Below, piece after piece: positions 30,319 to 33,542 of a DNA stretch of 49,345 bases. The position numbers and the translations under genes were made by a program. A model generated the notes under the pieces. It did not search any database and had not been told where the DNA came from. It was given only the letters and a program-made list of their open reading frames with translations. How positions within the stretch are numbered: the first letter of the stretch is position 1; every line of letters starts with the position of its first letter. The DNA is taken from the NCBI GenBank assembly GCA_019311105.1, contig JAFDDA010000007.1, positions 1 through 49,345 of the forward strand, in the 5' to 3' direction. This DNA comes from Deltaproteobacteria bacterium (GTDB lineage: Bacteria; Myxococcota_A; UBA9160; JAFDDA01).

Positions 30319-30963
30319 TCAGGGCCGGAACTCTCCGATGCGCGTGAAGCTGTTGACGTAGTCGATGCGAAGCTCAGGATGGCCCATCCAGTCCCGGACC
30401 GCCTGTTTCCCCCGCGGCTTCAACCGGGCGATCGTGAGCGGCGCCATCTCACGGAAAGCGGCTTCGGCGTCCGGGGTGTCGATCTCGTAGAGGTGGAGGA
30501 AGCGCGGCTCACCCCCCGCTGCGTCCTCATAAGGTGTGATCATCGTGAGCCCCGGGACCGCCGCCGAGGCGATCTCGCGGATGTGCAGGAAGTCGGCCCA
30601 ATCCCGCAGCGCCCCCGCACCGCCAGAGGTCCGCGGGCTCACGAGGACGAGTTCGAGGCCGAGCGTCGGGCGCCCGCTGAGCGAACCCTGCGCGGGCCGA
30701 TCGACGCGGCGGAAGTGGTGACCGCGCACACCTTCCTGCGCGGCGGGCGGCTCGAAGCCCGTGCCCACCTCGTAGACCGCGAGGGTTTCGAACTCTGGGA
30801 TCGTGCGCTCGTAATCGCTGCGATCCGGGCACTGATTCCGCCACAGGCTCGCGACCTGCACGCCCGGTGCCGCCAGCCGTCCCGGCAAGACCGCGCGCCG
30901 ATAGGACGCCGTGTCCCCTTCCACGAGTTCGAGATAGAGGGCTTCGCTACGGCGGGCCTCCAC
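30319..30963 (-). CDS. Conserved hypothetical protein, possible tandem ferredoxin-like (EthD-like) repeat
   Basis: This 214-residue protein seems to hold two similar halves. Each begins with a strand carrying LYLELVEG or LHLYEID, then a helix (ASYRRAVLP or AEAAFREMAP), which is the pattern of dimeric alpha/beta-barrel domains such as EthD or DUF4286. I cannot name a function. The GTG start shares one base with the stop of the esterase gene (TAGTG), which decides the start and shows coupling. The open frame continues far upstream opposite nothing else and is a shadow of the esterase gene. Confidence 0.6.
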   Translation of the reverse strand: MEARRSEALYLELVEGDTASYRRAVLPGRLAAPGVQVASLWRNQCPDRSDYERTIPEFETLAVYEVGTGFEPPAAQEGVRGHHFRRVDRPAQGSLSGRPTLGLELVLVSPRTSGGAGALRDWADFLHIREIASAAVPGLTMITPYEDAAGGEPRFLHLYEIDTPDAEAAFREMAPLTIARLKPRGKQAVRDWMGHPELRIDYVNSFTRIGEFRP

Positions 30964-31877
30964 TAGCTCGGCTCCGGGTCGGGGATCCGACTGCGGACGA
31001 ATGCGCCGAGCCGATCGAGAGCCGCCACCGCTTCCGGGATGCCCGCGCTCGCGAGGCCCTGGAAGCCGTGAATCATCTCCGGGACGATCTCGAGCGTGAC
31101 GTCGACGCCGGCACGCCCGGCGCTCTTTGCGAGGCGGACGGCGTCGTCGCGCGTCAGATCGACCTGGCCGGCTTGCAAGAAGAGAGGCGGCAAGCCGGTC
31201 GGGTCGGCGTGAATGGGCGAAACGAGCGGGTCGCGCAGGTCGCCACCCGGGCCCACATAGTCGCGCCCGCGTGCGCGGGTGAACTCGGGGTGGGCGAACG
31301 GGTCGGGCCCCACCGGGTGGGTGGCTGACTCGCCGCCGGCCTCGAGGTCGAACCAGCCGCCCAGCGTCGCCGCCAGCGCCGGCATGGGAACGCCCTGGTC
31401 GCGCAGATGGAGAAGCGAGGTGATTGCCAGCGTCCCGCCGCACGAGTCGCCGACGAATCCGATGCGGCCCGGTGCGTGGCCCTCATCGAGAAGCCCGCGG
31501 TAGGCGCTGGCGCAGTCTTCGAGGGCAGCCGGGTGACGATGGGCAGGTGCCAGCCGGTAGTCGACGAGCAGCAGCCGCGCCGCGCAGGGCCGCGCCAGCA
31601 TCTCGGCGTAGAAGAGATACCCGTCCCCACACGCCGCAACGTAGGCGCCGCCGTGACACAGGACCAACGTGCGCGGGGCCTCGCGCGTCTCCGGCGTGTC
31701 GACCCAGGCGCAACGGACGCCACCGAGCTCCACCCACTCGACGCGCGTGCCTTCGCCGATGGCGTGGCCGTGGACGGCTTCGAGCTTCTCGCGCGCCTCT
31801 TCGAGCGTGTCGTCCGGGCCCACCAGCGGATGGACGGCGAGGCCTTTCAACAGGGCCGCATACGGTTTGCTCGCCAC
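30963..31877 (-). CDS. Alpha/beta hydrolase, hormone-sensitive-lipase (acetyl esterase) type
   Basis: The 304-residue enzyme belongs to the HSL/bacterial family IV esterases. It has the oxyanion motif HGGAY, nucleophile serine in GDSCGG, the acid in QAGQVDLTRDDA, and the histidine in EMIHGFQ. It would cleave short-chain esters in the cytosol, as it has no signal peptide. The nucleophile motif GDSCGG differs from the common GDSAGG by one residue. The GTG start is preceded by GGAG at about 8 bases. It is the first gene of a four-gene run ending at 28863 and is divergent from the selenoprotein gene. Confidence 0.9.
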   Translation of the reverse strand: MASKPYAALLKGLAVHPLVGPDDTLEEAREKLEAVHGHAIGEGTRVEWVELGGVRCAWVDTPETREAPRTLVLCHGGAYVAACGDGYLFYAEMLARPCAARLLLVDYRLAPAHRHPAALEDCASAYRGLLDEGHAPGRIGFVGDSCGGTLAITSLLHLRDQGVPMPALAATLGGWFDLEAGGESATHPVGPDPFAHPEFTRARGRDYVGPGGDLRDPLVSPIHADPTGLPPLFLQAGQVDLTRDDAVRLAKSAGRAGVDVTLEIVPEMIHGFQGLASAGIPEAVAALDRLGAFVRSRIPDPEPS

Positions 31878-31970
31878 GCTTCACTCCAGACGTCGATCTC
31901 GAGGTCGATCGCGACGTCGGGATGATACGCTGTCGGCCCGACCAAAAGGGAAGCGAACCCGCGGCGAACG

Positions 31971-31977
31971 AGGAGGG
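31971..31977 (+). promoter_or_regulatory. Strong Shine-Dalgarno site of the UGA-interrupted gene
   Basis: AGGAGGG ends three bases before the ATG at 31981. It decides the start codon and argues that the 13-codon stretch before the TGA is translated. A possible -10 hexamer TACGCT is at 31926-31931. Confidence 0.7.
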
Positions 31978-31980
31978 ACC

Positions 31981-32319
31981 ATGGCCAAGCGAATCGACTG
32001 GTACTACCACCGCAAGGGCTGAACGTCTTGCACCCGAGCGTCCAAGTTCTTGGACGCCAATGGAATCGAGGCGAAGGAAACGATCCTGGCCAGCGCGCAG
32101 CTCGGCCGCAAGGACGCGGCCGCCATGGCGAAGGCGGCTGGCAAGGTCATCGTGGCCAAGGGCAAGAAGCTGACCGAGTTCAAGGGCGGCTCCGCGGGCA
32201 AGGACGTGGTCGACGCCATGCTCGGCCCGACCGGGAACCTGCGAGCCCCGACGCTGCGCAAGGGCAAGACCGTGATCGTCGGCTTCAACGACGAGACCTA
32301 CACGAAGGCGCTGCTCTAG
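31981..32319 (+). CDS. ArsC/Spx-fold selenoprotein with in-frame TGA (Sec14)
   Basis: Reading through one TGA at 32020-32022 gives a 112-residue thioredoxin-fold protein of the ArsC/Spx family. The start reads MAKRIDWYYHRKG, then U-T-S-C-T-R-A-S-K-F-L. In Spx the same place holds the redox pair C-T-S-C, so selenocysteine replaces the first cysteine (Sec14) and Cys17 is the partner. The C-terminal half keeps the family elements: an R-A-P segment (cis-proline region) and VIVGFNDE, as in ArsC and Spx. A strong Shine-Dalgarno site stands before the ATG, and a SECIS-like hairpin lies 15 bases after the TGA. It is probably a cytosolic reductase or redox sensor, but the partner is unknown. No sel genes are in the window, so decoding by selA/B/C/D elsewhere is assumed. 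Plain gene calling would report only 32050-32319. Confidence 0.85.
32038..32057 (+). promoter_or_regulatory. Bacterial SECIS-like hairpin
   Basis: Inside the coding sequence, arms GCGTCCAA (32038-32045) and TTGGACGC (32050-32057) pair perfectly over 8 base pairs and enclose a GTTC loop (a ninth G-C pair is possible). The stem begins 15 bases after the TGA and the loop begins 23 bases after it, with G as first loop base. This meets the published bacterial SECIS model (loop 3-14 bases, about 16-37 bases from UGA, G among the first two loop bases). It would bind SelB. Confidence 0.75.
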
Positions 32320-32547: not shown

Positions 32548-32564
32548 CGCCCCTGCTAGGGGCG
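32548..32564. terminator. Hairpin across the GT2 stop codon
   Basis: Arms CGCCCCT and AGGGGCG with loop GCT span the TAG of the GT2 gene. No T run follows on the minus strand, so it is only a weak terminator candidate. Confidence 0.3.
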
Positions 32565-33542
32565 GCGGTGGCGTCGGATCGAGAGAGGCTGACGCGGGAC
32601 GTTCTGCATGTCGTAGCCCAGGAAGGCGAGCAGCAGCTGCACGCCGATCATCACGGGCAAGGCCGCCAGCATCACGGTGCCGGCGGTGGCGGGCTCCCCC
32701 GTTCGAGCGCTCTCGGCCCAGTGCCCCAGACCGATCCAGGCGCCGAAGCCGAGCAGCAGTGTGCCGAGCACGAGCTCGACGGACGCGATGTTGAAGTTGC
32801 GCAGGAAGTATCCGTAGAAGATCCGCTTCCCGAGGTTGCGCAGATTCTTCCACACGAACTCACCCGCCGTGCGACGCACCGAGAGATTGCTCCGTTCCTC
32901 TCCATAGTGCGCCGCCATCGGGACGTCGCGCACCACCGCGCGCTGTGTGCCGAGGCGGAAGAGCAGGTCGGATTCGAAGAAGTAGCCGTCGCTGATCTTG
33001 TCGAAGGGCAACGCGCCGGCGGTTTCGGCGTCGATGGCGGTGAAGCCATTCGTCGGGTCGAAGAGATCCCAATAGCCGCTCGACAGCTTTGTGACGAAAG
33101 AGAGGATCGAGTTCCCGACGAGCCGGATCGTCGGCATGGCGCGTAGGCCTTCGAGGGAGTGGAAACGATTCCCCTTCACGTAGTCCGCTTCGCCGGTGAG
33201 GATCGGCTCGACCAGGCGCGGGATCGACGCCGGATCCATCTGGCCGTCGCCATCGAGTTTCACGATGACCCCCGCACCGGCCTCGATGGCCGCGCGGTAG
33301 CCCGTCAGGGTCGCCCCACCCACGCCCCGGTTTGTTTCATGCCGCAGCACACGAACGCGTGGGTCCGCGACACTCGACTCGACGTGAGCCCCGCTGCCCT
33401 CGGGACAGGCATCGTCCACCACCCAGATCGCAGAGACCTCGGGTCCGATCCCAGCGAGCACGTCGACGATGCGGTCCTTCACGCGGAAGCACGGCAAGAC
33501 GACGGCGATGGCGGAGGTCTGTCGTTGAGCGTCGTCCGTCAC
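32556..33542 (-). CDS. Family 2 glycosyltransferase with C-terminal membrane anchor
   Basis: This 328-residue GT2 enzyme resembles dolichol-phosphate-mannose synthase/GtrB proteins that load a sugar on a polyprenyl phosphate. It has VVLPCFRVKD at the N-terminus, the nucleotide-contact pair VVDDACPEG, the metal-binding KLDGDGQMDP, and two hydrophobic helices near the C-terminus (VLGTLLLGFGAWIGL and MLAALPVMIGVQLLLAFLG). A polyprenyl-linked sugar could feed the GT-C-like protein at 25371 (inference). It starts with GTG and has no Shine-Dalgarno; TAGAAT ends 9 bases before the start (33552-33557). It lies 75 bases after the gluconate-dehydrogenase-like subunit gene. Confidence 0.88.
   Translation of the reverse strand: MTDDAQRQTSAIAVVLPCFRVKDRIVDVLAGIGPEVSAIWVVDDACPEGSGAHVESSVADPRVRVLRHETNRGVGGATLTGYRAAIEAGAGVIVKLDGDGQMDPASIPRLVEPILTGEADYVKGNRFHSLEGLRAMPTIRLVGNSILSFVTKLSSGYWDLFDPTNGFTAIDAETAGALPFDKISDGYFFESDLLFRLGTQRAVVRDVPMAAHYGEERSNLSVRRTAGEFVWKNLRNLGKRIFYGYFLRNFNIASVELVLGTLLLGFGAWIGLGHWAESARTGEPATAGTVMLAALPVMIGVQLLLAFLGYDMQNVPRQPLSIRRHRRP

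Follow-up and report, generated by a model that had tools for sequence, protein, structure and literature searches.

Selenocysteine (Sec) has been placed in proteins of the arsenate reductase (ArsC) superfamily by several surveys. The Sec arsenate reductase reported from the Sargasso Sea in 2005 carries the motif UxxS (PMC1088965), and Table 2 of the 2008 Global Ocean Sampling (GOS) selenoproteome lists an "Arsenate reductase 2" (cd03032) with the motif UxxC, represented by 42 Sec and 238 Cys sequences (PMC2398784). An ArsC UxxC entry is also found in a 2022 review (PMC9312934). Table 1 of a review from 2026 gives, after the heading "Predicted with high confidence", the row "Arsenate reductase-like protein, NF041106, UxxC", citing for it the 2008 GOS paper as its reference 61 (PMC13188914). 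Among the texts retrieved when the literature was searched for NF041106 by name, this was the only paper to appear; limited searches on selenoproteins together with ArsC and Spx, NCBIfam and PGAP, or Myxococcota returned no paper, and in the material they covered no experimental study of the NF041106 family was found. The related Spx is described in PMC2801614, in the sections available, as a regulator of Gram-positive bacteria whose Gly52 is absolutely required for Spx-activated transcription.

The gene analyzed here lies in a window of 49,345 nucleotides, the whole stretch of DNA that was studied, from a genome assembly of 4.76 Mb (258 contigs, 89.9% complete) whose nearest named relatives are Myxococcota. 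Its frame opens with the ATG at 31981, ends with the stop codon at 32317-32319, and is otherwise broken by one TGA, readthrough of which yields 112 residues with the motif U14-T-S-C17. The features of the locus are as follows.

31970-31977, plus strand: Shine-Dalgarno-like site GAGGAGGG, read directly from the sequence, with AGGAGG 4 nt 5' of the ATG.
31981-32319, plus strand: ArsC/Spx-fold selenoprotein gene of NCBIfam family NF041106 (ArsC_rel_Se_1), 112 aa, from open reading frame (ORF) reading and profile score.
32020-32022, plus strand: in-frame TGA, very probably selenocysteine 14 of U-T-S-C, from the codons of relatives and the Sec machinery of the genome.
32029-32031, plus strand: TGC, Cys17, the presumed resolving cysteine, coded as Cys in 59 of the 61 TGA-form sequences that were aligned.
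32038-32057, plus strand: bacterial SECIS-like hairpin with an 8-bp stem (32038-32045/32050-32057) and the loop GUUC (32046-32049).

A previous, sequence-only reading of this DNA had pointed to a single TGA in a continuous frame behind a strong Shine-Dalgarno site, and had placed that TGA at the first cysteine of the C-T-S-C motif of Spx. Direct reading of 31981-32319 bears out the former, and alignment of U14 and C17 with Cys10 and Cys13 of Spx bears out the latter. The same reading called the selenoprotein one of "unannotated type", which is wrong: the protein scores 113.2 bits with the curated model NF041106, "ArsC family (seleno)protein" (cut-off 85), over profile positions 1-107 of 107, and this model is the one listed in PMC13188914. 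NF041106 calls for a [U/C]xxC motif that begins with Sec or Cys, and here codon 14 is TGA and residue 17 is Cys. The gene is the sole NF041106 match in its genome. Other models score below their cut-offs, namely Spx/MgsR TIGR01617 (29 bits; cut-off 75.05), Pfam ArsC (PF03960; 17 bits; gathering score 24), which is the second Pfam match, and Pfam glutaredoxin (17.1 bits; cut-off 22.9). With its full-length score above the cut-off, its one Sec and its UxxC motif, the protein has no feature found to distinguish it from the "Arsenate reductase-like" UxxC entry as tabulated. It shares the UxxC motif and the ArsC/Spx domain with the GOS "Arsenate reductase 2", the source of the NF041106 entry according to the citation in PMC13188914. 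With the Sargasso Sea protein it shares the ArsC superfamily and a Sec in the first position of the motif, the difference being UxxS there and UxxC here (PMC1088965). The gene is a member of an already catalogued selenoprotein family and no new type of selenoprotein.

The identity of the TGA codon was approached through relatives. When named genomes were scanned, a procedure that favours close relatives and so does not give an unbiased count, 30 loci came up, from Deltaproteobacteria/Myxococcota, Planctomycetota and a few more groups; all 30 have TGA at the Sec codon. Alignment A1 comprises 29 of them (L029, cut off by a contig end, is omitted); these relatives are 45-80% identical to the window protein and are conserved in one frame on both sides of the TGA. 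Residues D6, W7, Y9, R11, G13, U14, A37, G61, G82, G85, L87, R88, A89, P90, G95 and G101 are invariant in A1, and K60, K62 and K63 nearly so. Of 377 genomes sampled from the window's phylum, an NF041106 match over the cut-off occurs in 77, and 77 of the 78 matches hold one TGA, the remaining one (G363) none. In a second phylum, that of a planctomycete recovered in the scan (L016), 80 of 392 genomes have such a match, with TGA present in 70 of 81 and absent from 11. The 12 matches lacking TGA were read individually: 11 have Cys (TGC or TGT) and one has Asp. The Asp (GAC) occurs in a second copy, L112 (G426:C12:140623-140940), whose genome also has a TGA form (L113). Relatives with TGA and relatives with Cys at this codon, both of which the sequence-only reading had proposed to look for, thus exist. 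NF041106 in the two sampled phyla is Sec-dominated, in contrast to the Cys-rich GOS table (PMC2398784), whose Cys count may be drawn from a wider family than NF041106.

The same reading had also suggested a search for selA, selB, selC and selD. The window's genome contains selA (525 bits), selB (274 bits; cut-off 242), selD (279.4 bits) and a tRNA-Sec (74.4 bits) with anticodon TCA according to ARAGORN; the whole window itself gives no match in Rfam at gathering scores and none with ARAGORN. Two tRNA-Sec genes of equal score lie 1.3 kb apart on one contig (L039 and L040, G000:C140:707-801 and 1978-2072), which is either a real duplication or an assembly repeat. A third Rfam tRNA-Sec match over the cut-off (L041) is called tRNA-Ser by ARAGORN.

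The presence of selA follows the form of the gene. In the window's phylum, selA is found in 75 of 76 Sec genomes as against 238 of 377 genomes overall (Fisher p 2e-16, uncorrected for relatedness). In the second phylum it is found in 66 of 70 Sec genomes as against 2 of 10 Cys-only genomes (p 7e-7, likewise uncorrected), selA-positive being defined there as E below about 1e-70, which gives 242 genomes compared with 239 over the cut-off, the borderline ones apparently being neither Sec nor Cys genomes. The TGA form occurs without a selA match in G191 of the window's phylum and in G713, G683, G645 and G554 of the second; incomplete assembly is my guess for these. The Cys form occurs with selA in G363, the sole Cys-form genome of the window's phylum, and in G516 and G640. 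A tree of 72 sequences, built with the Sec column masked, contains six changes involving Cys, of which at least three are forced by well-supported branches, the small number of columns leaving many forks unresolved. Such changes and the selA pattern would be expected if Sec and Cys replace one another as the ability to make Sec is gained and lost. In the two sampled phyla Sec is the usual form of the NF041106 subfamily, and Cys is a recurrent alternative, mostly in genomes without selA.

Bacterial Sec insertion involves a hairpin (bSECIS) downstream of the UGA, for which PMC13188914 gives, in the portion consulted, a loop of 3-9 nt, a stem of 4-16 bp, G in the first two loop positions and a distance of 16-37 nt from the UGA. 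The window hairpin conforms to all four rules, with a 4-nt loop, 8 bp and a spacing of 23: its stem starts 15 nt, and its loop 23 nt, after the UGA. Its energy is -12.6 kcal/mol for the hairpin alone and -14.8 kcal/mol for the 48 nt from the TGA (z -2.15; 5 of 200 shuffles equally good), the threshold used being a minimum free energy of -7.5 kcal/mol or lower. Since 29% of the 921 TGAs in the window also pass the SECIS rules, and 6.3% reach the energy of the selenoprotein hairpin, the hairpin at this one TGA is on its own weak evidence. The family is clearly unlike controls: 44 of 56 distinct sequences, window included, have a passing hairpin at this threshold (12 have none), whereas among 3528 control codons taken from these genes the share is 28%. 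The loop starts 23 nt after the TGA in each of the eight hairpins listed, among them that of L061, which narrowly misses the energy rule. In a synonymous-shuffle test the mean z over the 48 nt that follow the TGA was -1.11, compared with -0.17 to -0.57 in five later segments. One helix common to all sequences has 65.7% of its cells paired; its covariation score and its number of cells changed on both sides exceed every shuffle, but neither the both-side-changed pairs (182 of 500 shuffles as high) nor the pair types (86 of 500) stand above shuffles, slid versions of the helix share many of the changes, and a second register scores too. Because the covariation of the common helix is mixed, the SECIS case rests on the single-hairpin and synonymous-shuffle tests. 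Loss of the hairpin in Cys-form genes is a weak signal (p 0.046 on 48 nt, 0.76 on 39 nt), and 19 planctomycete Sec genes give no signal in the 39-nt test either. Taken with the machinery of the genome, the codons of relatives and the relation of Sec and Cys to selA, this evidence supports very well the earlier inference of Sec at the TGA. The TGA at 32020-32022 very probably specifies selenocysteine, and as a computational case this reading comes close to certainty.

Further TGA-bearing sequences lie around the family. L087-L091 and L093 form another ArsC/Spx-related branch, in which the corresponding motif (U-T-[ST]-C) contains an in-frame TGA and R-R-P or K-R-P has been kept; their best NCBIfam model is TIGR01617, at 34-58 bits (cut-off 75), and they score 28-39 bits with NF041106. 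They may be a Sec family of their own, closer to Spx/ArsC. L083-L086 make up one more branch with TGA, L083 scoring 68.5 bits with NF041106, below the cut-off. In L092 (G078:C82:7508-7819) the TGA is found four codons upstream, at the position of a Trp in L091, while Cys takes the usual Sec place and Ala that of the second Cys; a shifted Sec and a sequence error are both possible.

An AlphaFold2 model computed from 30 sequences (mean pLDDT 90.2) was compared with known structures. The best Foldseek matches are Spx chains, headed by 6gho (E 1.7e-3, TM 0.57, rmsd 6.1). All Foldseek matches have E above 0.001, and the fold assignment therefore draws in addition on a profile search, whose top match is Spx 3l78 (E 1.8e-8). 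In the profile alignment, U14, C17, Lys60, Arg88 and Ala89 correspond to Cys10, Cys13, Arg60, Arg91 and Arg92 of Spx. The window protein thus shares with Spx (6gho, 3l78, 7f75) the fold, the place of the redox pair and a VGFNE-like end. It differs in having Sec for Cys10, in being shorter, in Ala89 for Arg92, in its score below the Spx/MgsR cut-off, and in the loop before Gly52: four Spx residues are missing there and Gly52 itself aligns with Ala52, some relatives (L014, for example) having Gly. The Spx/ArsC-like fold put forward by the sequence-only reading is supported, with Spx as the nearest known structure. Of the hallmarks that it cited, the VGFN end stands; the R-A-P region departs slightly from the Spx/ArsC pattern, since in Spx and in the putative arsenate reductase 2m46 the conserved Pro is immediately preceded by Arg, where the window protein has Ala89.

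The surroundings of the gene say little about what it does. In the window it is flanked by two genes on the opposite strand, encoding an alpha/beta hydrolase (30963-31877) and a family-2 glycosyltransferase (32556-33542); Pfam identified, among six neighbouring ORFs, acetoacetate decarboxylase, hydrolase, glycosyltransferase, gluconate dehydrogenase subunit, GMC oxidoreductase and deformylase. Neighbours were compared across 61 loci including the window, with flanks of up to 3 kb (L001-L030 and the window) or 1.5 kb (L052-L081). Among the 25 clusters listed, no true neighbour cluster occurs in more than 6 of the 61 loci, and the one that reaches 6 consists of ABC ATPases in varying places. Of 126 flanking ORFs picked, 109 were compared with Pfam, 17 being omitted for size, and no family occurred in more than 3; the picked ORFs are the longest ones, some surely in the wrong frame, and the TetR frame of L005 was missed. 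No arsenic-resistance family is among the 25 commonest of the 80 Pfam families in these 109 ORFs. In 4 of the 61 loci (L005, L059, L068 and L069) a TetR-family regulator encoded on the strand of the gene lies just upstream, ending roughly 70-140 nt before it. In the lineage of L007 and L009, genes for glutathione-disulfide reductase and an endonuclease III-like protein precede the gene and a MAPEG-family gene follows it, all on the same strand; the endonuclease, slightly under its cut-off, and the MAPEG protein were tested in L009 alone, and the L078 protein is identical to that of L007. In the window's genome (about 90% complete) no glutathione reductase scores over the cut-off. Assigning a function from neighbours was rejected, as none is widely shared and the glutathione reductase lineage offers too few cases. 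Apparently free-standing for the most part, the gene is a better fit to a general redox protein than to a member of an arsenic operon.

The gene, the position of Sec, the Sec/Cys exchange, the Sec machinery, the hairpin and the fold are computational results, and with high confidence I take them to describe a 112-residue NF041106 selenoprotein of ArsC/Spx fold in which the UGA at 32020-32022 is Sec and the pair Sec14/Cys17 is redox active. The protein is most likely a selenol-based thiol oxidoreductase. SelB and tRNA-Sec, aided by the hairpin, would decode the UGA, giving a thioredoxin-like product of ArsC/Spx fold with Sec14 placed just before the first helix. Sec14, with a low pKa, would be the nucleophile that attacks an oxidized substrate, and Cys17 would resolve the intermediate; the resulting selenenylsulfide would then be reduced by a thiol system of the cell, either thioredoxin or a low-molecular-weight thiol. 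Redox catalysis, the order of the steps and the reductant are what I infer, and since no neighbour is widely shared, reductant and substrate are guesses. The two exceptions to Cys17 in alignment A2, L023 (Ser) and L027 (Ala), retain the TGA and read U-T-S-S and U-T-S-A. As they are without the resolving Cys, the two-residue cycle fails for some members; the sequences of this branch suggest a one-selenol cycle, which would need a thiol from outside.

A related possibility, which I consider unlikely, is that the protein is the Sec version of an Spx-type redox switch, or a one-selenol reductase; its grounds are that Sec is the rule, that Cys replaces it repeatedly and mostly without Sec synthesis, and that the L023/L027 branch manages with Sec alone. 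Another reading is an Spx-like transcription factor that senses redox state through a Sec-Cys switch binding the alpha subunit of RNA polymerase; in its favour are the fold and profile matches, which are best with Spx structures, and the position of U14 and C17 over Cys10 and Cys13. I regard it as very improbable, given the score of 29 bits with TIGR01617, the missing residues before Gly52, the Spx contact to the alpha subunit, and the Ala52 of the window protein (Gly in some relatives) at a position called absolutely required in Spx, itself described as a Gram-positive regulator (PMC2801614). Classification as an Spx regulator by family model was rejected on the TIGR01617 score.

Sec14 could also attack arsenate or another oxyanion held by Arg11, Lys60/62/63 and Arg88. 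That Pfam ArsC is the second Pfam match, that Lys60 and Arg88 align with Arg60 and Arg91 of Spx, and that these basic residues are invariant or nearly so in A1, as Gly61 is, would suit such a reductase, but the ArsC score lies under its cut-off, arsenic-resistance families are missing from the commonest neighbours, and the oceanic Sec arsenate reductase has UxxS rather than UxxC. Moreover, the Arg that precedes the conserved Pro in Spx and 2m46, a residue with a catalytic role in the R773 enzyme, is replaced by an Ala89 that is invariant in A1. Spx Arg92 holds sulfate in one Spx crystal, according to the part of PMC2801614 consulted, and the invariant Ala89 therefore speaks against a plain ArsC-type oxyanion site. 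Reduction of an oxyanion by this protein is thus very improbable as well. Finally, that the TGA truly ends translation or stems from a sequencing error, leaving a short peptide or a broken gene, is scarcely credible and was rejected: in the standard code TGA does mean stop, and assemblies do carry errors (L096 has a frame break), but codon and flanking protein are conserved, the TGA recurring at the same place across several phyla, and Cys replaces it mostly where selA is absent.

Read as a Sec-containing thiol oxidoreductase of the ArsC/Spx fold, the window gene adds a well-supported member to NF041106, a family without a tested function. The exchange of Sec and Cys within this family makes it a natural experiment on what selenium gives to a thioredoxin-fold protein.
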